Source: Symbiodinium sp. CCMP2592
Taxonomy: Eukaryota > Sar > Dinophyceae > Suessiales > Symbiodiniaceae
DNA: 64,000 bases
Assembly (NCBI GenBank): GCA_905221615.1
Contig: CAJNDT010000609.1
Span: 1-64,000, forward strand
Reading direction: 5' to 3'
The notes under the pieces are model-generated. The model saw only the letters and a list, made by a program, of their open reading frames with translations. It did no database searches and was not told the DNA's origin. Below, in pieces: positions 1 to 11,183 of the stretch (position 1 is the stretch's first letter; each line of letters begins with the position of its first letter). Position numbers and translations under genes: made by a program.

Positions 1-5
1 AGATT

Positions 6-1925
6 TTGGATTTTTCTGCGGATGAGAGAGAGTGGTATTCTCAAGTTCAGGACAATGACTTGGGAAGCTTTGAGTGCGTGGAAGAAGAGATACCTGCCTC
101 CTCTCCTGCTGCTCCGCTACTTTTGCCAGGATCACAGTCCAATAAGCTGTCTTGGCTTGAGGGACCGATGGCTGAGCTTGATGCTTCTCAGATGGTGGCT
201 GCAGCAGTTCACAAGAGAAGGAGGTTCGAGTTACCACGTCAGCCTTGGGAGACAAAGCCTTCACATCTTGATCAGTGCTCGGATTTTTTCTTGAAGTTTT
301 CGACTTCTGTCGGGGTGAGTGAAACTTTGTCTATGGCAAGAGACAAGGATCCCGAACCTGATGCTTTTTCTCACATTCCTTGGACTGTAACCAGAAGGTT
401 GGCCAGAGCGAGGCTGCCGAAATCGGATGCAGACATAAGAGATTCTTCTTTGAGGAGGTTCAAGATGCTTATCTTGATTGACCCTGAGGCCACAGCCTTA
501 GGCAGCAGCCTGGTTGATCAGGGTAAGGCCATGGAAGATGATGAAGTCATAATGCAGAGTCTGGCAGACGCCTTCAGGGGAAAGGCATCCTTGACTTTGC
601 AGAAGAGATCCTTGTCACTTCAGGTTTTTGTGGTGAGGTCCTATGATGCTTCGCTGGACTCACCATGGCGACTTAACGAGGCTCAAGTCTATGCTATCTT
701 TGCTGGATTTCGGGAGCATGGTGCTAAAGCTTCTACGGCCTCTCATATCTTGGAGGCTTTGAGGTTCTTCCATGCCATAGCCCGCTTCAAGTACATGGAC
801 CTGGAGGCCATCTTGTCTTCGAGAGTGCGTGGCGTCGCACAAGACTTGAAGCTCAGAAAGGCTCCTCTGAGGCAGAGAGATTCCCTCAGTCGTCGGCGAG
901 TGGAGGCATTGGAGCTGCTGATGGAGAGATGCTCAGATTGGACCCGATGTGTAGTCGGGCAATTTCTCTTTTGTATACACACATCTTGTCGGTGGAGCGA
1001 TTCACAGAACGTTCAGTCTTTGACTCTCACTTCTGATGGAGAAGGCCAATTGCTAATTGCAGAGGCTCTTGGATCGAAGACGTCTACCACAGTAGAGGCG
1101 AAGACGCGCCTGCTTCCGTACGTATGTGTCTCCACTGGGGTGAGCAACACGCCGTGGGCGCAGCTCTGGTTGGAGGCACGTGAGAGAGAAGGCATCCAGT
1201 TCGACCGGGGGTGTCTACCTTCGTGGTCGCAGAAGTGGGGATGCTGGGGCCAGGAGAGAATGTCATCCGAGGAGGCCAGCGACATCTTGATCGACGTCCT
1301 AACTTCATTGGACATGGCCCCTGGCCCTGATGAGTCGATAGGGACCCACAGCTTCAAGACCACCTTGATCACGTGGAGTGGGTGGTCACCTATAATTTCT
1401 TTTACTCCCAAGGAGAGGTTGTTGATGGGACATCACCTCAGGAAGGGCGGCCCTTCGTCGACTCTGATTTATAGTCGTCAGTTCTACATCAACTTGTCGG
1501 GAAAAATCCTGGCGATGTTCAGGACCATCCGCCAGAACCAGTTCGATCCGGATGCCGAGGTCACGGACAGGGTCGCGGCAGTGGCATCAGCACTTGCAGG
1601 TGACGCGACGGCTTCACAGGCTCCCGCTCCCCCTGAGGATCAGCACGTGGGTGCCGCCGATGTGGAGTCTTCTGAGTCTGCCGAGTCAATTGTGGGGTAT
1701 GAGCCAATGCCGCGCTCCGGCCAGGAGCTTAGACCGCCTTTCGAATGCACCGTGGCCGAGCTTCGTGTGCATAGCCTGTCTGGCATCGTTCATCGACTCA
1801 GGGACGAGGGCACTTTCTTTTGTGGGCGTCCCCTGACAGACAGATACAGGGACTTCGAGGAAGACGATGCCGATGACCCGGACACCTGCCATCAGTGCAG
1901 GCGGGCGATGTCGAGCGCTGATTGA
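6..1925 (+). CDS. DIRS/Crypton-like tyrosine recombinase, possibly 5'-partial
   Basis: The frame is open from the left window edge for 639 codons. It opens on TTG, and the first in-frame ATG is at 168, so the true start is at 168 or outside the window. The catalytic set of a tyrosine recombinase is visible, counting from position 6: R329 in CRWSD, H448-S-F-K451, G475-H-H and Y489 in LIYSRQ, 12-13 residues after the GHH box. The second basic residue is Lys (HSFK) instead of the usual HxxR; I recall HSxK and YSR as normal in dinoflagellate copies. Such enzymes integrate circular cDNA of DIRS-like elements, or Crypton DNA, without an integrase. The C-terminal tail has Cys pairs (FFCGR and CHQCRR) and may bind zinc. 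It lies 581 bases upstream of a Gag ORF on the same strand, whereas canonical DIRS elements put the recombinase after RT. It may therefore belong to a preceding element copy. Family call fairly sure; element assignment not. Confidence 0.8.
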   Translation: MDFSADEREWYSQVQDNDLGSFECVEEEIPASSPAAPLLLPGSQSNKLSWLEGPMAELDASQMVAAAVHKRRRFELPRQPWETKPSHLDQCSDFFLKFSTSVGVSETLSMARDKDPEPDAFSHIPWTVTRRLARARLPKSDADIRDSSLRRFKMLILIDPEATALGSSLVDQGKAMEDDEVIMQSLADAFRGKASLTLQKRSLSLQVFVVRSYDASLDSPWRLNEAQVYAIFAGFREHGAKASTASHILEALRFFHAIARFKYMDLEAILSSRVRGVAQDLKLRKAPLRQRDSLSRRRVEALELLMERCSDWTRCVVGQFLFCIHTSCRWSDSQNVQSLTLTSDGEGQLLIAEALGSKTSTTVEAKTRLLPYVCVSTGVSNTPWAQLWLEAREREGIQFDRGCLPSWSQKWGCWGQERMSSEEASDILIDVLTSLDMAPGPDESIGTHSFKTTLITWSGWSPIISFTPKERLLMGHHLRKGGPSSTLIYSRQFYINLSGKILAMFRTIRQNQFDPDAEVTDRVAAVASALAGDATASQAPAPPEDQHVGAADVESSESAESIVGYEPMPRSGQELRPPFECTVAELRVHSLSGIVHRLRDEGTFFCGRPLTDRYRDFEEDDADDPDTCHQCRRAMSSAD

Positions 1926-2506: not shown

Positions 2507-3712
2507 ATGTCCTCTGTCATATTGGACAGTGAAGCTTCGTTCCGTGAGAGATGCAGTAAAATAGGCCTCAGCAACGATCTTCTCGGTAAGTTGATTGAAG
2601 CCGGCTACAACACATTTGGAAAGCTCGCTTTCGCCGCTTCTTCCACACCGCAGGGTTTGACAGACGAAGCTGTCGATTCATGGCTAGCCACTGTGGTCAC
2701 CCCGTCTCCTGGTTCCTTTCAGGTTTCGGTGATCCGTAGGTTGCTTTTTGAATCGCAATCACTCAATGTGGCGGATCTCAAATCTAGGGTCGAAGGCACG
2801 CCGGAAGGTTCCGTGCGTCGCCTGCCCCAGGCCGAGAGAAAGGAGCGCATCGAGGCGCAGCATCGTAGGCTGTCGGGTCTCATTCTGACTTCGCATACCA
2901 CTCCTGCCCACAGCTGTATCGACCTTGTGACTGACATGTACGAGAATAACACACTCAAGTACATTCCGATTAACAGATGGATATCCCGCTTCCAAGAAAT
3001 GTCTCTTCAGAAGAAGGATTCTGCCGTTCAGATGGACAACGAGGGCAACTTGAAGGTCGTCCAGAAAAAGCCGGAGCCTACGTGCGACACCACTGGCATG
3101 TACCCTCTCCGGCAGGCCTTCCAGAGACGGTCGTTAGCATTTGATCTAGGTCACTTGTGCAGTTTTGAAGCAATGGAAACATGGATCAACCAACTCTTCG
3201 AGGCAGTTCAGCGTACCGTGCCAAAGGGATATGTAGCAGTCAGCTTGGGACAAGTCGTTACGGCAGATCGTGAGCTTTTTGTCCGGTTGGCCGACAAGCT
3301 TGAAGGACAATTGCAGAAACCCATAGGTGTGGAGAAACCCATGGATGCAGCTTTGCGTGACCTCTCGGGTAGCCAGGAGATAAATCAATTTCTCCAGCCG
3401 ATGGTAGCTCCTCCTCCTGCACCACATCCCACGAAGCGCCCTTTCAAGGAGATTGCCACGCCTAACAAAGGCGACGGAAAGGGCAAGACATCCACCAAGG
3501 GCGGCGAGAAAGGCGGTGGCAAGGCACCTCGTGTAACCATTCCGGATGGCTGTGCGGCCAAAGATCCTCAAGGCAAGCCGAATTGTTTTGGGTTTAATTT
3601 AGGCACGTGCAAGCTCAAGGTGACGAAAGGAAGATGCCCGCGAGGCTTTCACCAGTGTTGGCGATGTTTTGGGGATCACCCCTTTACTGAATGCACAAAT
3701 CAAGTACAGTGA
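2507..3712 (+). CDS. gag: Gag-like protein of DIRS-like retroelement
   Basis: A 401-codon ORF starting at ATG 2507. The N-terminal two thirds has no motif I recognise. The segment around residues 315-350 is rich in Gly, Lys and Thr (KGDGKGK and similar). The C-terminus has a Cys/His cluster (CFGFNLGTCK, CPRGFHQCWRC and a final HPFTEC) that looks like a CCCH- or knuckle-type zinc finger for nucleic-acid binding, as expected of a nucleocapsid. It ends at TGA 3710-3712 and the downstream Pol ORF continues in exactly the same frame, so it reads as the Gag part of a Gag-Pol unit. The role as Gag is inferred from the zinc cluster and from its position directly before Pol. Confidence 0.7.
   Translation: MSSVILDSEASFRERCSKIGLSNDLLGKLIEAGYNTFGKLAFAASSTPQGLTDEAVDSWLATVVTPSPGSFQVSVIRRLLFESQSLNVADLKSRVEGTPEGSVRRLPQAERKERIEAQHRRLSGLILTSHTTPAHSCIDLVTDMYENNTLKYIPINRWISRFQEMSLQKKDSAVQMDNEGNLKVVQKKPEPTCDTTGMYPLRQAFQRRSLAFDLGHLCSFEAMETWINQLFEAVQRTVPKGYVAVSLGQVVTADRELFVRLADKLEGQLQKPIGVEKPMDAALRDLSGSQEINQFLQPMVAPPPAPHPTKRPFKEIATPNKGDGKGKTSTKGGEKGGGKAPRVTIPDGCAAKDPQGKPNCFGFNLGTCKLKVTKGRCPRGFHQCWRCFGDHPFTECTNQVQ
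3710..3712 (+). promoter_or_regulatory. Single in-frame TGA separating Gag and Pol
   Basis: Gag (2507-3712) and Pol (to 7504) share one reading frame, with only this TGA between them. No other stop lies in the 4,998-base combined frame. The context is CAG TGA TGG. The first convenient Pol start codon after it is a GTG at 3746, an unlikely initiator in a eukaryote. Stop-codon readthrough, as used by some retroviruses, would give a Gag-Pol fusion. A recent CGA-to-TGA mutation is the simple alternative. Confidence 0.55.
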
Positions 3713-6700
3713 TGGGGCCATGCGAGGCCCCAGGGGCCTGACCTCGTGGCCACTTCGGATTCTGCCCCTAGTGATGCTGAGGTCCTCGCGCAGGCCATTT
3801 TGGCCAGAGGGTCAGGGATTACTAAGCAAGATGTTGGTCAGATTTTCGATCTTTTGCCCAAGGAGATTCCTTCTAGAGGAACCTCCTCGCAGCCTCCGAG
3901 CAGTTTCAGTTGTGGGGCCTACGCAAAGGGTGGATTGCAGGGTCTTCGGAGTGAATGTGCGCTGTTTCCATCCTGCATAAAGCTCCTCACTGCTTTTGTT
4001 CGCACCTTTTTGCCAGAGCATTTCTTCACGACTATCAGTTTGTTTCACAACACCAAAACCGATTTGCATGTCGATTCTAGGAACCATCGTACCCCCAACG
4101 GGGTCATTGCCGTGACTTCTTTTCAAGGAGGTGGCATCTGGATTGCCGATGGATGCGGGCCTCACAAACGGACAATCAAGGGTGACATCGTGAAAGGCTC
4201 AATCCTTAGCCTCGAGACCCCGATCACTTTTGATGCCTTCAAATACCCTCACGAGACGGAAAGCTGGGTTGGCGATAGATTGGTTTGCGTGGCCTTCACT
4301 GTCGCTAGCCTTGAGAAAATCCCAGCTGAGTCAGCCAGGACCTTGCTTGATCTAGGGTTTAGGCCCCCGCCTGATCTTTCCTTCCCCATTCCTGTGACTG
4401 CCCAGGAGCAGCCGCCTGTGAAATCAGACTCCTGGGTTTACGAGCTCTTCGCTGGCACTGCCCGCTTCAGCAAGGCTTGCAAGGATTTGGGTTTTCGGGT
4501 TTTAGGGCTAGACAGTTCTTGCCATAAAGCGGTCTCTCCTGTGGCCAGGCTTGATCTGACCTTAGATTCGGCACAGTCGATCTTTTGGGATCTCATTAAG
4601 GAGTGCCCTCCGTTTCACGTGCATGCATCGCCCCCCGCGGGCACGGCTTCTCGCTCTCGTGAGCGGCCCTTGCCAAAGAATCACGCCCTTGCCTCTAAGG
4701 CCCCTAAACCTTTGCGATCCGATGATTTCCCACTAGGCCTACCGTCACTGAATGCAGCGTCTCAGCAGAGCCTTGCCGTGCGCAAGGACAATGTACTGTA
4801 TCGCTTCGTTTACAAGCTTTTGCTACATTGTTCTGCTTCAGGCATCAATGTCAGTGTCGAGAATCCCCGGACTTCGCTTTTCTGGAAGGTTCTTCAGTGC
4901 TTTGCCGAGGCCGAGGGCTTGCTCTGGCCTCCGGCCGCCTTGGAGTACGTTGATTTCGACCAGTGTTGTCATGGTTCCGATCGCCCGAAGTCCACTCGTT
5001 TCTTGTGCACTCGAGGCTTGTTCCACTCGCTTCGAGCTACTTGTCCAGGCAATCACGAGCATCGCCCGTGGGGCCTTGTGTTCCATGAGCGTTCTATGCA
5101 GTTGTCGTCTTCTTCCGTGTCGGCATACCCCGTTCTGCTTTGCAAACGCATGGCCTCCTGTCTGGAGAGCGCGGCTTTGTTCCTGGGTCTGTCTTTGCAG
5201 GCCTCTCCTGACCTGGCAGCCAACTCTGTTGCTGTTCTTGGTCGGCAGCACCGCCGATTTCCCCCCTTGATTCCTGAGTTTCGCAAGGTCACTTGGGAGC
5301 CGCCCTCTTTCCAGCCTGACGACTCTTGTCGCATCCTTCTCTCTCAGATTGCTGGGGAGGATAGCGGGAGAGAGAATGCAGCCGAGGACGCCGACAAGGA
5401 GGTGAACCCTCCTACAAAGCTCCCCAGAGTCGCAGATAAGGTGTCCAGCAAGGTTCCCTCCTCGGGTTTCCCTAATAGTTCCGACCCTCCCCAAGGTTCG
5501 GTTAAGGTAGGGTGGTACTTGTCGATGCAGGATCACGTGGCAAAGGCCTTGACCTTAAAGCATCCCGTCGACACTGCCGTAGCCCTTGATCAGGATCAGC
5601 TTGATGCCATCAGCTTCTGCATGAAAAACACAGAGAAGGAGGTGGTAGATCATCGTAAGCTTCAACTCTTGAAGATAAAGATCCTCGCCAAAAAGTTTGA
5701 GGCCGACGAGGCTCGATTGCATTCTTCTTTCGACCCTTGGTTCGAGAAAGTTGTGGCGGGAAAGCGTCTTCTTCTGTGGAAACACCTTCTTGAGCAGAAC
5801 AATTTCGATGACATGCAAGTTTGCGATTTCATGATGTCGGGCGTCCCGATTGTCGGGCAGTCAGCCTGCCCTCAGCCTTTCAGCAGAAAGATTGTGCCGG
5901 CTACCATGACGGAGCAGGATCTCAAGGGTACCGCTTCGTTTCGCCGGAAGGTCATGACTGGATCCAGCGGCATGCAAGCAGCCGATCTACAAGACTTGCT
6001 GTCGAAGGCTACGTTGGACGAAGTCGATCTGGGCTTCCTGGAAGGCCCATACACCGAGAGCCAAGTGTCTGCTTTCTTCCACTCTGACGATTGGAACTGC
6101 GTACGAAGATTCCTGATCCTTCAAGGAGCCGAGAACAAACCTAGACCCATAGATGACGGGCATGAGGCTTTGATCAACAATTGCTTCACGGCCACCATAA
6201 AATTGGAGCTCCAGAACTCTGACTTTGTGGCGGCTCTAGCGGCAAGGATTGCCATCGAAGAGGCTGAGAGATCTCGCGCTACAGGCGAGCCCCCAAGGTC
6301 GTGGCTGGGCAAGTGCCTCGATTTATCGAAGGCGTACAAGCAGATGCCAATGAAGAAGGAGCACCGCTCTCTCGCTGTGATCTACCACAAGGGCCCTGCA
6401 GGCGAGGATCAATTCTTCATTGCAAATTCGCTGCTCTTCGGACTCACTGCTTCGGTTTACGGGTTCGTGCGCACGAGCAGAAGCCTTCACAAACTGCTGC
6501 TTAAGATTTTCAAGTTGCCCAGCTCAGTGTACTTTGATGACTTTCCGATGTTTTCGACATCGCTTTCTTCCAGTGACACTGACGGCATCATCAGCGAATT
6601 CTTAGACATTCTGGGCTGGGGCCATGCCAAGACAGGCAGCAAATCACACCCCTTTGCGGAAGTTTTCTCCGTTTTGGGAATGCAGGTCGACTTGAGCAAC

Positions 6701-7504
6701 TTGTCGAAGAGAAGCATCGTCCTATCGAACAAACCTGGCAGGATCGATAGGATCGTGGAGAAGCTTGAATCCGTGGCTGCTTCGGGTTTCCTTACGATTC
6801 ATCAGGCTCAGATTCTGCTGGGCTTGCTCAACTTCTCATCGGGTTTCTTTGCCGGTCGTGCCCTCAAGCAATCTTGCAAATGGCTATCTGGTTTTCTGGC
6901 TGGAGACAGGCCTTCGCCAAAGACCGTCAGCAGGCACACGGTCAAGATTCTTTTGAGCACACCGCCCCGCTTCATAAGCTGCGATTCAACTGGAGAGCCT
7001 CCTATCCTGATATGGACTGATGGAGCTTGGGAGCCTGCCAAGGCCTTCGCCGGGATCGGTGCAGTAATTCTTGATGCGAGCAGCGGCGTATCTAGAGTTT
7101 TCCAAGGTCGGGTTCCAGAGCGCCTCGTGGTTCGCTGGCGTGAGGAGGTCGGGGAGCAAATCATCTGCGAGGTAGAGCTTTATGCTCTCCTGATGATCAG
7201 GGCCGGCCTTCAGAACTTTCTTTCAGGAAGACGAATCATTTTCTTCATTGACAACGATGCCGCTAGATCTGTGGTGCTGCGCGGTCAAAGCAGAAGCGAA
7301 GCGATGCATCGCTTGGCCATGGCTTTGTCCATGGTCGATGCCGTCGCCCCTTGCATATCGTGGATAGAGAGAGTGCCATCATCTTCGAACATCGCGGATT
7401 GGCCCTCCAGGGGCGAAGGTTGGAAAGCTCAGAAGGTCGTTCGTGCAGTGAAGGTGGAGCCTTACTTCTTCGATCAATCTTTGATTGATGCTTACCTGCT
7501 CTGA
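3713..7504 (+). CDS. pol: Pol polyprotein: dioxygenase-like barrel, C5-methyltransferase-like domain, reverse transcriptase, RNase H
   Basis: Residues are counted from the GTG at 3746 (1,252 codons). About 50-195 looks like a double-stranded beta-helix of 2-oxoglutarate/Fe(II) oxygenases: H108-V-D110, a GGGIW strand, H169, and R178 nine residues later as the usual 2OG-binding basic residue. About 228-440 looks like a C5-DNA methyltransferase: motif I ELFAGTARF from E233, motif IV SPPAGTASRSRE at 295-306, motif VI VENPRTSLFW with E372. Position 298, where the catalytic Cys of PPC should be, is Ala. About 750-1070 is the RT: D859 in CLDLSKAY, SLLFGLTASVYGF, and Y929-F-D-D. About 1085-1225 is RNase H: D1092 (WTDGAW), E1142/E1144, D1169 (FIDNDAA), D1218 (IADWPSR). 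All RT and RNase H catalytic residues are present. No aspartic protease or integrase was seen, consistent with a DIRS-like element. RT/RNase H is sure; the methyltransferase call is good; the dioxygenase call is moderate. Confidence 0.88.
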   Translation, partial: WGHARPQGPDLVATSDSAPSDAEVLAQAILARGSGITKQDVGQIFDLLPKEIPSRGTSSQPPSSFSCGAYAKGGLQGLRSECALFPSCIKLLTAFVRTFLPEHFFTTISLFHNTKTDLHVDSRNHRTPNGVIAVTSFQGGGIWIADGCGPHKRTIKGDIVKGSILSLETPITFDAFKYPHETESWVGDRLVCVAFTVASLEKIPAESARTLLDLGFRPPPDLSFPIPVTAQEQPPVKSDSWVYELFAGTARFSKACKDLGFRVLGLDSSCHKAVSPVARLDLTLDSAQSIFWDLIKECPPFHVHASPPAGTASRSRERPLPKNHALASKAPKPLRSDDFPLGLPSLNAASQQSLAVRKDNVLYRFVYKLLLHCSASGINVSVENPRTSLFWKVLQCFAEAEGLLWPPAALEYVDFDQCCHGSDRPKSTRFLCTRGLFHSLRATCPGNHEHRPWGLVFHERSMQLSSSSVSAYPVLLCKRMASCLESAALFLGLSLQASPDLAANSVAVLGRQHRRFPPLIPEFRKVTWEPPSFQPDDSCRILLSQIAGEDSGRENAAEDADKEVNPPTKLPRVADKVSSKVPSSGFPNSSDPPQGSVKVGWYLSMQDHVAKALTLKHPVDTAVALDQDQLDAISFCMKNTEKEVVDHRKLQLLKIKILAKKFEADEARLHSSFDPWFEKVVAGKRLLLWKHLLEQNNFDDMQVCDFMMSGVPIVGQSACPQPFSRKIVPATMTEQDLKGTASFRRKVMTGSSGMQAADLQDLLSKATLDEVDLGFLEGPYTESQVSAFFHSDDWNCVRRFLILQGAENKPRPIDDGHEALINNCFTATIKLELQNSDFVAALAARIAIEEAERSRATGEPPRSWLGKCLDLSKAYKQMPMKKEHRSLAVIYHKGPAGEDQFFIANSLLFGLTASVYGFVRTSRSLHKLLLKIFKLPSSVYFDDFPMFSTSLSSSDTDGIISEFLDILGWGHAKTGSKSHPFAEVFSVLGMQVDLSNLSKRSIVLSNKPGRIDRIVEKLESVAASGFLTIHQAQILLGLLNFSSGFFAGRALKQSCKWLSGFLAGDRPSPKTVSRHTVKILLSTPPRFISCDSTGEPPILIWTDGAWEPAKAFAGIGAVILDASSGVSRVFQGRVPERLVVRWREEVGEQIICEVELYALLMIRAGLQNFLSGRRIIFFIDNDAARSVVLRGQSRSEAMHRLAMALSMVDAVAPCISWIERVPSSSNIADWPSRGEGWKAQKVVRAVKVEPYFFDQSLIDAYLL

Positions 7505-8116
7505 GTTCGTCGATCCGAGGGGGTGTGTTCGGGACAAACTCTGAGCGGCTTCAGGCCCGTGCTCTTCGCATCGGCTGCGGCCCGGATGCCATGGTTCCGA
7601 AACTGAATTCGTTCGAACCCCTGATCGCTGAAGAGAAAAAGAAGAATGCGCGACCTTCTCTGCTGCCAACTTTTTATTTGGAACGGGAGATACCTTTGAG
7701 CCTCGAGCTCGACTCTTTTGATTGAGTCATATAATTGTGAGTTGGATTCATTTGAACATATCGGATTGCGAAGTTTTTAATATATTTATCGTGTACTTCA
7801 TTGCGAGAATACCTTGTACACGATTGCCGGTAAGTGCATCTTTCAAACATCGCTGATTTTAAAGAAGAAACTTTTCTGCCTGCAGACTTTTCTTTCTTTG
7901 AAATCGGCGACAGGCCGCAGGCCGTGTTTGACAATTGGCCACAGCACATCATGCTATTTATTCCCCCCCCCTTTTTGGGGTGGGTTTTTCATGAAGAATA
8001 TTTGACATGCTTCATCGATTTTTGTTGCATGTCCATGTTCCTTGGCATCTCTGATGATACTCTTGTGTCTGACGAAGTGACTGCTCGAGCTGAGCTTTTA
8101 AAACTTTTAGCTGAGC
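7505..8116. other. 3' flank of DIRS-like element, non-coding
   Basis: No gene is recognised. Directly after the Pol stop comes GAGGGGGTGTGTTCGGG, a G-run followed by TGTGTT, the layout of a polypurine tract next to a terminal repeat. The same G-run/TGTGTT junction follows the RNase H remnant ending at 8515. Near 7549 is one copy of the motif also found in 1926-2506. The rest is AT-richer with a run of nine C at about 7964. No recombinase ORF follows this Pol. Confidence 0.4.
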
Positions 8117-8515
8117 TTCTTCTCGTATGAGCTGAACCAGAGGCAGATGGAAAAGCTCGGCAGCGCCGAGAAGAAGACCATCATCTTCGAGGCGGAACTT
8201 GTGGCGTACATCGCTGCAATTGTGCTTTGGCGTAAACGGGTTATGCATCATGCATTGGTTGCCTACGTGGATAACAACAATGCTCGCGACGTATGCATTT
8301 CAGGGAGAGCAAGAAATGACACCGGCAAGATGCTCATCGAGCTACTCCTCTCGGTGGAGGACATGGCAGGTCTAAACACTTGGATAGCTCGTGTTCCGAG
8401 TCCTTCTAATCCATCGGACATCCTGTCCAGGGAGCTGGTCGATGCCATGAAGACCAGAACAGGAACTATCAAGGCAACCCCAATTGCAAAAACGCTCGAT
8501 GACATTCTTGCTTAA
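8117..8515 (+). pseudogene. RNase H remnant of a related retroelement
   Basis: The frame encodes the second half of an RNase H related to the one at the end of the Pol ORF. FEAELVAY matches CEVELYAL, VAYVDNNNARDV matches FFIDNDAARSV, and WIARVPSPSNPSDILSRE matches WIERVPSSSNIADWPSRGE. The three downstream acidic residues are therefore present. The first Asp strand (WTDGA in Pol) and the whole RT are missing upstream, so it is 5'-truncated. It ends at TAA 8513-8515, 16 bases before a G-run and the 310-bp LTR-like repeat, which fits the 3' end of an LTR-type or DIRS-type element. Confidence 0.7.
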
Positions 8516-8530
8516 GACTTCGGTTAATTG

Positions 8531-8840
8531 GGGGTGTGTTGCCTGCCTTGGCTTGCGTGCGTTTGTGGACTGCCTAGTCCCACAGCCTTGAGCCTTCGCA
8601 TTGCGTGAACGATGTGCTCACCCGCGCCTGCGGATGGGCATGTCGTTGCAGGAGTGTGATCGCCCGACGTCACCAGTGAAAATGAAGACCTTGCGAGTGC
8701 TGCTTCCTGAAGGAACTTATTTGATATATATATATATATATATATACATCCAGTTGCGTTCGTTGCAAATAGATTCGCAAATCATTTCCTTTTTAGCGCT
8801 GCCTTTTCTGCTCAATCGGAAGAACAACGGAGTAAATTAA
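8531..8840. repeat. LTR-like direct repeat, copy 1 (310 bp)
   Basis: Nearly identical to 9245-9552. The repeat opens GGGGTGTGTTGCCTGCC directly after an RNase H remnant and ends GAGTAAATTAA. It contains a (TA)n microsatellite at about 8734-8752 whose length differs by two bases between copies. The position after RNase H and the purine run before TGTGTT suggest a 3' LTR with its polypurine tract. No matching 5' LTR upstream of a coding region was found, and the second copy lies only 404 bases away. Confidence 0.65.
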
Positions 8841-9244
8841 GCTAGCGGTCAACGGGTTGATAGCGCTTTAATTTTCGTGTTGTTTGTAAAACTGGGTTAG
8901 TTTTACTTCTTCCGATTGAGTTAGAAAGAAAACTTCGAAAGTGATTTTCTCTTGCAAGCATTCCTTGAGTGCATGACCTATGATATGCTCCCGCCGTGAG
9001 TGTGTGCTCAAGGGAGCAAGTGAAGGCAGCATGTCAACATGGGCAGACATGGGCAGAAATTTTTGTCCCGCCCGCCCACCCAGTGATAATGACGCAAACC
9101 CTTGCCGCTACTGCTTCTTGGGCTCTGATAGCCACCGGCTTGTCGACTTGAGAATATTCTCCTGCTTGCGCTTGTTCCGCCTTCGGCCTGTCCAACCGAA
9201 CTTCACTTGCGACTACGAGCTTTGTAAACTACATAGTTCCGTGA
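8841..9244. other. Spacer between the two LTR-like repeats
   Basis: No gene. It holds the right arm of a perfect 14-bp inverted repeat: CTCAATCGGAAGAA at 8811-8824 (inside copy 1) and TTCTTCCGATTGAG at 8907-8920. The segment 8999-9080, with GTGTGCTCAAGG and a C-rich CCCGCCCGCCCACC, resembles 12080-12137, so part of it is dispersed repeat. Confidence 0.4.
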
Positions 9245-9552
9245 GGGGTGTGTTGCCTGCCTTGGCTTGCGTGCGTTTGTGGACTGCCTAGTCCCACAGC
9301 CTTGAGCCTTCGCATTGCGTGAACGATGTGCTCACCCGCGCCTGCGGATGGGCATGTCGTTGCAGGAGTGTGATCGCCCGACGTCACCAGTGAAAATGAA
9401 GACCTTGCGAGTGCTGCTTCCTGAAGGAATTTATTTAATATATATATATATATATATACATCCAGTTGCGTTCGTTGCAAATAGATTCGCAAATCATTTC
9501 CTTTTTAGCGCTGCCTTTTCTGCTCAATCGGAAGAACAACGGAGTAAATTAA
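9245..9552. repeat. LTR-like direct repeat, copy 2 (308 bp)
   Basis: Second copy of the 8531-8840 repeat, with few substitutions and a shorter (TA)n tract. The reading frame of the downstream deubiquitinase-like ORF is open through this repeat, where the TA tract would encode alternating Tyr-Ile. That frame depends on TA length, since copy 1 with two more bases runs out of frame. Confidence 0.65.
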
Positions 9553-9593
9553 AAGTTAATCAAGGCGGGCCTCCTGCTGGACAGCCCCCTACG

Positions 9594-11183
9594 ATGGTCA
9601 TACACCAGGTGGGACGCGGAGAAGCAGACACACATCCCGACGGACAGGGAGCCCCTGGCACACGATCGGGCCCTGACATTCATACAGGAACTCAAACCGG
9701 TGATGATCAAGGAGGGAACCATGCATGCATTTCATGCAATGGGAGGCCTACCGGAGGAGAAGTCGGAGCAGAACAAAGTCACCCTTCTCAAGTTGACGAT
9801 CTCACAGGAAGCCCCAGACAAGATGAGAATCAGGGAGGCTCTGAGCACCCTGACCGAGAACTCAGTGCTGCGGCTCATAGGGGTCCGTCTGCGACCGGAG
9901 CGCAGCCATCGGCCACTTCCAAAGGAACTTCTGCAGCTTCTGAAAGCCACTCAGTAAAGAAGCCCAGGACCAAGGGGATGCCGTTGGCGGCCCCCACAGA
10001 AACAAAGGAGGGCGGGGAGCCCACGCCGGCCCCGAAGCAGACAATCTTCAGCAGAGGGAAGCTGAAGCACATTGAAGCGTTGCCGACAGGCGTCTTACCT
10101 GAAGACCTCCAACGTATTGACAGAAGAGGTCAGAAGGCAGAAAGCAACAAAGGGAAGCCGAGGACCGGCCCTCAGCAGGGGACGCTGACAAATCAGCAAG
10201 GGGACATCCCTAACAAGGGAGGCAAGGGGACCCTCAAGCAATGGCTTGAGCAATCGGGGACGAACTCGGCTGCAGCATCGAGTGCAGCAAACATCAGAGC
10301 GCATGATGCCCATATGGATCTTGACACGCCGCCATCGCTTGTCCTTGCGAATCCACACAATCTCTGCTATCTCAATTCGCTGATTCAGGCACTTATGTGG
10401 ATCTACAACGCCAGGGCCTCAGATCGCAAAGCACATTTTGGGGACCTCCATCCATTGCTCAGACCCCTCCTGGCTGTGCATGGAACGGTCCAGCTCTATC
10501 GGAGGAAGGCGTGGCTTGACATACTCCGAACATGGCCTAGATTGCATCAGCAGCACGATGCTGCCGAGTTCTTCACATTCCTAGCGGATCAAATACGCCT
10601 GCCAGGTATACATGGCTCATGGGAAGCCCGATCCATGGAAGGGCCCCAAATCCAAGCTCACCAACGAATGAGCCCGGTGCCGCTCATCACCTTACCCTGT
10701 ACACCAGACAAAACACTGCAGCAACTCGTGGAGGATTGGTCCTATGAGCAAGACACGGGAGAGGTAACAGCCCTCGCGAAACCCCCACCGATCCTGAGCA
10801 TTCAACTTATGCGATTTAGTGGGGACCTCAGAGGAGAAGTCGGCAAACTCCAACACAGAATCAACCTCTCACCACGACTACAGGTGCCTACATTCACCGA
10901 TGGTGTTCACACAGAGCCCTGCACCTACGTGCTCAGCTCGGTAGTGTATCACATTGGATGCACTCCGGACTCAGGTCACTATCGATCGCTGGGCATTTCG
11001 GCCCCCAAAGGGGAGCCGACTGCTGCTTTCTACAGTGAGCTCCAAAGGAGCTTAGCAGAGGATGCCGCCCATCCGGCCCTCCATGTACAGAATGATGACA
11101 CACCGACTGTCGTAGCTAACTCTACTGACCTAAATGAGATCAGTAGGACGTGGTACTTAGCTCTCTTTTCATGGCCGCAATAG
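9594..11183 (+). CDS. Ubiquitin-specific protease (USP/UCH)-like protein
   Basis: The frame is open from 9315, but the upstream part lies in the LTR-like repeat, so I take the first ATG outside it (9594; an alternative ATG at 9348 lies inside). Length 529 aa. Residues 1-240 are low-complexity, rich in Gly, Gln, Thr, Pro and Lys. The C-terminal 280 residues carry the USP catalytic signature: a Cys box NPHNLCYLNSLIQAL with C258, a helix QQHDAAEFFTFL, the strand ILSIQLMRF, and a His box DSGHYRSL with H462, followed by a terminal WYLALFSW. USPs remove ubiquitin from substrates by thiol-protease chemistry. The fold is compact for a USP and I see no CxxC zinc-finger insertion in the fingers region. 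It is intronless and directly follows an LTR-like repeat, so it is either a retrogene or cargo of a repeat element. Domain call sure; host role unknown. Confidence 0.8.
   Translation: MVIHQVGRGEADTHPDGQGAPGTRSGPDIHTGTQTGDDQGGNHACISCNGRPTGGEVGAEQSHPSQVDDLTGSPRQDENQGGSEHPDRELSAAAHRGPSATGAQPSATSKGTSAASESHSVKKPRTKGMPLAAPTETKEGGEPTPAPKQTIFSRGKLKHIEALPTGVLPEDLQRIDRRGQKAESNKGKPRTGPQQGTLTNQQGDIPNKGGKGTLKQWLEQSGTNSAAASSAANIRAHDAHMDLDTPPSLVLANPHNLCYLNSLIQALMWIYNARASDRKAHFGDLHPLLRPLLAVHGTVQLYRRKAWLDILRTWPRLHQQHDAAEFFTFLADQIRLPGIHGSWEARSMEGPQIQAHQRMSPVPLITLPCTPDKTLQQLVEDWSYEQDTGEVTALAKPPPILSIQLMRFSGDLRGEVGKLQHRINLSPRLQVPTFTDGVHTEPCTYVLSSVVYHIGCTPDSGHYRSLGISAPKGEPTAAFYSELQRSLAEDAAHPALHVQNDDTPTVVANSTDLNEISRTWYLALFSWPQ

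Follow-up and report, generated by a model that had tools for sequence, protein, structure and literature searches.

A predicted TET/JBP-like oxygenase domain and a cysteine-less methyltransferase fold share the Pol of a DIRS-like retrotransposon in Symbiodinium

In the dinoflagellate Symbiodinium sp. CCMP2592, the Pol polyprotein of a DIRS-like retrotransposon with a putative tyrosine recombinase joins two unexpected domains to its reverse transcriptase (RT): a predicted TET/JBP-like dioxygenase barrel, and a domain with the fold of C5-cytosine methyltransferases in which the catalytic cysteine has been replaced by alanine. The copy studied lies at the start of contig CAJNDT010000609.1 (C609; assembly GCA_905221615.1), of which the first 64,000 nucleotides, hereafter the window, were analyzed; searches were run over the whole genome (1.10 Gb, 5383 contigs). 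A sequence-only reading of the window had proposed that a dioxygenase barrel and a methyltransferase-like domain are fused to RT and RNase H in one Pol. This fusion stands, with RNase H assigned by motif alone: the 1252-amino-acid open reading frame (ORF) is stop-free, and H108, D110, GGGIW, H169, R178, ELFAG, SPPAGT, VENP, CLDLSKAY and YFDD all lie where that reading had placed them.

Conventional profile searches detect little of this architecture. Pfam recognizes RVT_1 alone on the window Pol (E 4.4e-6, 27 bits, slightly under the cut-off of 29.6), and phmmer found zero relatives of the whole Pol among PDB sequences at E up to 1, so that fold prediction was needed to recognize the domains. 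The AlphaFold2 model of Pol 58-205 (predicted local distance difference test, pLDDT, 91.5; predicted template modeling score, pTM, 0.88) is a double-stranded beta-helix of the 2-oxoglutarate (2OG)/Fe(II) class, the fold expected from the motifs, and it matches 2OG-oxygenase folds of the TET/AlkB group. Identity to the structures of TET2, Naegleria Tet1 and CcTet is 11-13%. In the Foldseek list, ALKBH2-type entries lead and prolyl hydroxylases are among the matches.

The barrel is called TET/JBP-like because it is tied to the Tet_JBP profile through the barrel of a sister family (L020/L025, place C485) and because an AlkB control gave no overlap. Pfam detected Tet_JBP in two of nine diverse barrels (best E 0.0047; the window's own not among them) and in three of 21 further ones, and no AlkB or prolyl-hydroxylase family was found in either scan. 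When the Tet_JBP profile was run over the genome in six frames, four places were matched at E 2-3e-4 among 150 candidates scored; none of the four exceeds the curated cut-off, and all four carry the barrel motif HRDTHN followed, in one frame, by the methyltransferase motif PPCGT. The L020/L025 barrel itself matches Tet_JBP at E 3.1e-7. Its top three phmmer matches among PDB sequences are all TET2, at an E of 0.08 that alone is not significant, and the two proteins share the stretches HRDTHNM/HRDLHNM and LHATLP/LHATTP. Between it and the window barrel, homology extends over 161 residues (30% identity, E 2e-24). By comparison, the AlkB profile 2OG-FeII_Oxy_2 matched 13 places in the genome, none among the listed barrel places, and membership in AlkB was rejected on this ground. 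The affinity suggested by the sequence-only reading is supported by predicted fold and profile kinship, and we regard the window barrel as a probable, intact-looking TET/JBP-like 2OG/Fe(II) domain. Other leads were discarded: weak Pfam matches of single barrels (bpX6, Viral_FcR, PH_17, Exop_C) were taken as chance, a PHROGs scan of the nine barrels gave weak unrelated matches only (best E 0.1), and an A2 profile had two matches among PDB sequences, both unrelated, TET being absent.

The residues expected of a working oxygenase are widely retained. A barrel profile was aligned to database proteins and to frames from the Symbiodinium genome, giving 81 rows, 71 of them readable at all five sites; the 26 own-genome rows include two places counted twice (C485, as L020 and L025; C110, as L033 and L051). 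H108, D110, N113, H169 and R178 are all kept in 63 of the 71 readable rows, and the Fe triad in 69. Within the genome, the five residues are intact in every row (26/26), including all eight near-complete copies of the window family. N113 belongs to the HxDxxN motif, whose asparagine we take to be a base contact in TET2 (N1387) and in NgTet1.

The second domain was modeled with similar confidence (Pol 229-490, pLDDT 89.5). Its top fold matches are DNMT3A/B and M.HhaI, DNMT3 being the closest by Foldseek, and it carries what we take to be motifs I, VI and VIII, with VENP presumably corresponding to the ENV motif; PF00145 does not match the window Pol at E up to 1. Of the methyltransferase motifs reported by the sequence-only reading, the fold is upheld and SPPAGT as a working motif IV is not: relatives have PPCGT, and Pol 298, the position of their catalytic cysteine, is alanine in all eight family A/A2 loci and in all four family B loci, with cysteine in the sister rows. 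The cysteine has been lost at least twice beside an intact barrel, whereas sister families keep it. Since this residue is absent from all eight near-complete copies, the suggestion that a methyl-writer works beside the oxygenase in the window element is rejected for this family; the domain appears to be a C5-methyltransferase fold and is not filed as an active enzyme. One of the four Tet_JBP-matched places, read over its whole length (L025), is a sister-family Pol with the order Gag, barrel, methyltransferase fold, RT, and combines PPCGT with an intact barrel; a writer-plus-oxygenase tandem is only plausible in such families. As for a canonical DNMT element (L049), a barrel was not seen in a 684-aa piece of its 1204-aa frame.

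Selection was estimated from the ratio of non-synonymous to synonymous substitution rates (dN/dS) between subfamilies A and A2. Values are 0.145 for the barrel (0.067-0.285) and 0.094 for the methyltransferase domain (0.053-0.148); the other regions give 0.049 (RT), 0.050 (Gag), 0.110 (RNase H), 0.153 (linker) and 0.189 (recombinase ORF). Constraint seems to act on both added domains, including the one without a nucleophile; compared with the linker, neither stands out clearly, because the intervals overlap. Near-identical copies give estimates too noisy for use (0.31 for the barrel, with an interval reaching 1.6), and in comparisons of more distant families most synonymous sites are saturated.

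The element is mobile and has been copied recently. Eight near-full-length Pol matches, including the window copy, were found in the genome at 93-100% amino-acid identity; seven have no internal stop and the remaining one has a single TAG. The same domain arrangement recurs in families 46-51% identical and in further database proteins, as the sequence-only reading had anticipated for related elements. Database relatives from the same strain reach 93% identity over the N-terminal query (P0001) and 98.8% over RT (P0005). Comparison of ten-kilobase stretches around the Pol copies gives the layout A-YR-Gag-Pol-B-A-B, where YR is a tyrosine-recombinase-like frame; the element measures 9.36 kb in C783. 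The split direct repeats A-coding-B-A-B are present in seven copies, five complete ones of family A and two of A2. In the window copy (Table 1), the left A is missing because the contig starts inside the element; the last B is also missing, and homology ends at 8108. The recombinase is putative, with an R..HxxK..GHH..Y-like motif seen by eye and, in a homologue, a weak Phage_int_SAM_1 match (E 0.42). Its frame measures 743 aa in L009, L010, L012 and L013 and 764 aa in L011. In the window, Pfam gave zero matches for the recombinase-like ORF, the Gag-like ORF and the RNase H-like region. Gag and Pol share a frame. At every one of the 13 loci examined, drawn from families A, A2, B and C, they are separated by one TGA that follows a glutamine codon (CAG/CAA), which makes this TGA a candidate site of programmed UGA readthrough.

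Table 1. Features of the DIRS-like element in the window (all on the forward strand)
Feature	Position	Strand	Remarks
Tyrosine-recombinase-like ORF	3..1925	+	Open frame; 5' side truncated by contig start
Gag-like ORF	2507..3712	+	402 codons; C-terminal Cys/His cluster by eye; ends in TGA
Single in-frame TGA separating Gag and Pol	3710..3712	+	One frame
Pol ORF	3746..7504	+	TET/JBP-like barrel, C5-methyltransferase-like domain, RT, RNase H
TET/JBP-like 2OG/Fe(II) dioxygenase domain (predicted)	3917..4360	+	Pol 58-205; AlphaFold2 and profile kinship
HVDSRN	4067..4084	+	Fe ligands H108 and D110; N113
H169 to R178	4250..4279	+	Third Fe ligand to 2OG arginine
C5-cytosine-methyltransferase-fold domain	4430..5215	+	Pol 229-490; AlphaFold2, fold matches
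Alanine codon, Pol 298	4637..4639	+	Site of motif IV catalytic cysteine in relatives
Reverse transcriptase	5843..6775	+	CLDLSKAY, YFDD; RVT_1 match
RNase H-like region	6923..7465	+	TDGA, EVELYA, DNDAA, DWPSR by eye
Repeat B, first copy	7519..7866	+	348 bp; twice, flanking A, in L009-L015
Repeat A	7867..8108	+	242 bp; further copy at left end of complete elements (L026-L030, L009-L015)

Directly past the truncated 3' end, an RNase H-like fragment lies at 8147-8515 (Pfam RT_RNaseH, E 0.042), followed by a 310-bp direct repeat (8531-8840 and 9245-9552, 98.7% identical). The stretch 8109-9552 resembles the 3' terminus (B-A-B) of another DIRS-like element, abutting this one at 8108. Farther on, a single-frame ORF of 622 aa (9315-11183) contains a ubiquitin-specific protease domain (PF00443, E 3.1e-14) behind a low-complexity N-terminus.

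Barrels of this kind are numerous in the genome and occur in two retrotransposon superfamilies. A first search returned 46 relatives, with the methyltransferase fold in 44 and the barrel in 17, some being cut by gene models. Searching with the barrel of one protein, P0045, retrieved 21 proteins, for 16 of which PF07727, the RT domain of Copia elements, is listed; among the Copia proteins inspected, the barrel sits between the integrase (weak rve matches) and RVT_2. In the genome, the best 150 of 4867 candidates for the P0045 query (weakest E 1.4e-18) comprise 121 in open frames of at least 1000 aa (counted by eye) and three with an internal stop; they mix Copia elements (L033/L051, one place, by Pfam; L032, L034 and L035 by like motifs) with the DIRS-like L050. 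The L020 query gave 5059 candidates, whose best 150 include at least 35 full-length matches at 83-100% identity. Among the matches listed, barrel places number well over 200 in this one genome; the two lists have at least four places in common, and catalytic sites were read for a minority. In a tree, one branch (99/93) separates 17 barrels of Copia elements from 16 of DIRS elements, and therefore a single exchange or one common source suffices. Since Tet_JBP was found neither in the Copia proteins P0045, P0046, P0049, P0052 and P0056 (E up to 1), nor in six others (E up to 0.1), nor in L033 and L051, the Copia barrels are tied to TET via the DIRS barrels.

Variants of the domain order were also seen. 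The DIRS-like Pol of L050 (G000:C5011:431000-434500) has its barrel (HRDANN) after a methyltransferase-like fragment recognized by eye and before RT, the reverse of the window order. In L024 (G000:C947:86500-96499), the barrel has HRDLAN, the methyltransferase-like stretch is of another kind (SPPC) and the RT is of YVDD type; a repeated GAPDH-like frame adjoins its Pol (by eye). Among barrel-bearing Copia polyproteins, L051 (G000:C110:196500-201500), P0046 and P0056 have a C-terminal SAP-like match, and P0046 and L051 show hydrophobic segments after RNase H, by eye. Four database proteins (P0010, P0013, P0014, P0016) are 85.7-95.3% identical to the window in their RT parts and lack a complete barrel, with gaps also around motif IV; these gaps are presumably gene-model artefacts, possibly false introns. 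Domain surveys on public Symbiodinium gene models would overlook the fusion of barrel, methyltransferase fold and RT.

We consider it probable that the Pol of this element combines a TET/JBP-like base oxygenase with a cysteine-less C5-methyltransferase-fold domain, and that the barrel hydroxylates 5-methylpyrimidines in element DNA. Joined to RT in one polypeptide, which readthrough from Gag into Pol might produce, the barrel would act on element cDNA or on resident copies, converting thymine to 5-hydroxymethyluracil (5hmU) or oxidizing 5-methylcytosine (5mC). Of the two reactions, the one on thymine would be preferred to the conversion of 5mC to 5-hydroxymethylcytosine (5hmC), since it does not depend on a methyltransferase and dinoflagellate DNA is rich in 5hmU, with enrichment in repeats. 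The domain without cysteine may have been kept as a DNA-binding or base-presenting module: a cysteine-less mutant of M.HhaI reportedly still binds DNA and flips bases. The resulting mark would protect cDNA or change the silencing of new copies, and sister families that keep PPCGT might methylate and then oxidize in tandem, as phages do. In Breviolum minutum, most classes of repeats show elevated 5hmU (PMC11071213); a link between 5hmU and DIRS or Copia elements is put forward here as a possibility. As a possible source of the repeat-enriched 5hmU in dinoflagellates, the barrel provides a specific candidate enzyme, its activity being predicted, and the repeated loss of cysteine beside an intact oxygenase offers a natural experiment on the use of a methyltransferase fold without methyl transfer.

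A number of observations weigh against this interpretation. The window barrel itself stays below Pfam detection (zero matches at E up to 10), which we count against certainty; even the best kin barrel, L020/L025, reaches 30.2 bits where Tet_JBP requires 34.9; and structural Z scores tie between TET and AlkB/ALKBH with no separation, for which reason they were dropped as a discriminator. Catalytic residues are not universal: an Fe ligand is replaced by Arg in P0002 (at H108) and in P0070 (at H169), and R178 is Gln in six rows of the Copia group (P0060-P0065). The aromatic residue six positions after the arginine is kept (F184), and at R+8, where TET2 and NgTet1 have a His that we take to contact the cytosine base, the window has V186. 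This difference points, if weakly, away from 5mC as the substrate. The dN/dS values come from one subfamily pair. In Breviolum, 5hmU is strongest on Maverick DNA elements, and DIRS goes unnamed in the part of the source considered (PMC11071213).

The same barrel could serve other ends. It might oxidize host-deposited 5mC on element copies, rather than thymine, and so counter silencing; this is possible if rather unlikely, since the barrel shares its family with 5mC oxidases, against which stands the lack of conservation of the His presumed to contact cytosine. The CpG observed/expected ratio of the element (0.80 versus 0.92 in window positions 12001-64000) would be a weak sign of past methylation, although a small difference in one weak composition statistic is not diagnostic. 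Fungal transposon TETs are discussed as counter-silencing in the part of PMC12730594 considered. An AlkB-like RNA demethylase or repair enzyme guarding element RNA seems improbable: the tie in Z and the ALKBH2-type entries at the top of the Foldseek list would suit it, and a functional 2OG oxygenase, active in vitro, has a precedent in orchid Ty3/Gypsy retrotransposons (PMC9289625, in part), but the AlkB-profile places never coincide with listed barrel places, the Pfam scans of the barrels name no AlkB family, and HxDxxN with the TET2 sequence match favours TET/JBP.

We give equally little weight, or slightly less, to a barrel that is non-catalytic or directed at proteins, whether it serves structure or binding or hydroxylates Gag or host proteins. 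Prolyl hydroxylases among the Foldseek matches, the Gln substitutions of R178, the two rows with a lost Fe ligand and the missing nucleophile of the adjoining domain would agree with it; a purely structural role, however, would not require the Fe triad retained in 69/71 readable and 26/26 own-genome rows. That writer and oxygenase are both active in the window Pol is hardly credible given alanine at Pol 298 throughout families A/A2 and B, even though sister families such as L025 pair PPCGT with an intact barrel and phages pair C5-methyltransferases with TET/JBP (PMC12730594, in part). A bolder extension of the base-oxygenase proposal, which we consider doubtful, is that the TET/JBP-like domains of DIRS and Copia elements are a main source of 5hmU in dinoflagellate nuclear DNA, with no dedicated host gene, the fused C5-methyltransferase being in some families a silent DNA-presenting module. 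The six-frame genome scan with Tet_JBP, which misses short exons, named no host gene; a host enzyme is still possible because host exons are very short, with medians of 65-68 bp in DNMT genes (PMC5890265, in part).

DNA-methyltransferase retrotransposons and TET DNA transposons were known before; what appears to be new is a TET/JBP-like domain in the polymerases of two retrotransposon superfamilies. No description of a TET/JBP-bearing retrotransposon was recognized in the open literature searched, subscription papers and preprints lying outside the search, and surveys of the 2OG superfamily may already mention one. The word dioxygenase is absent from the part considered of a study of accessory domains in retrotransposon polyproteins (PMC6338049), and TET, JBP and dioxygenase do not occur in the main text of the SymbioDIRS-Dnmt3 paper (de Mendoza et al. 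2018, PMC5890265). As described in the portion of that paper considered, the SymbioDIRS-Dnmt3 elements are dinoflagellate DIRS-like elements with a PF00145 DNMT whose key residues are conserved. The present element resembles them in fusing a methyltransferase fold to RT in Pol, with a separate, here putative, tyrosine recombinase and A-coding-B-A-B repeats, and differs in that its Pol has no PF00145 match and has lost the catalytic cysteine.

Kinetoplastid JBP is grouped with TET2, Naegleria Tet1 and CcTet. The window barrel has the fold of the three TET proteins, and the L020/L025 barrel shares the HRDxHNM and HATxP stretches with TET2; the window barrel is unlike them in its compactness (about 150 residues) and low identity. 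The neighbouring domain likewise agrees with DNMT3A/B and M.HhaI in fold, motif I and the ENV-like VENP, and departs from them by its Cys-to-Ala replacement and an identity of 10-16%. Among mobile elements, fungal TET+ DNA transposons (Kyakuja and others, Helitrons; PMC12730594, in part) also carry a TET/JBP-family dioxygenase, which here is a Pol domain of DIRS-like and Copia retrotransposons. Phalaenopsis Ty3/Gypsy elements (PMC9289625, in part) provide the other retrotransposon-borne 2OG/Fe(II) oxygenase, with activity seen in vitro where that of the window barrel is predicted: theirs is of AlkB type, encoded in an additional ORF and acting as an RNA N6-methyladenosine (m6A) demethylase, whereas the domain described here is TET/JBP-like and lies within Pol, beside a methyltransferase fold.

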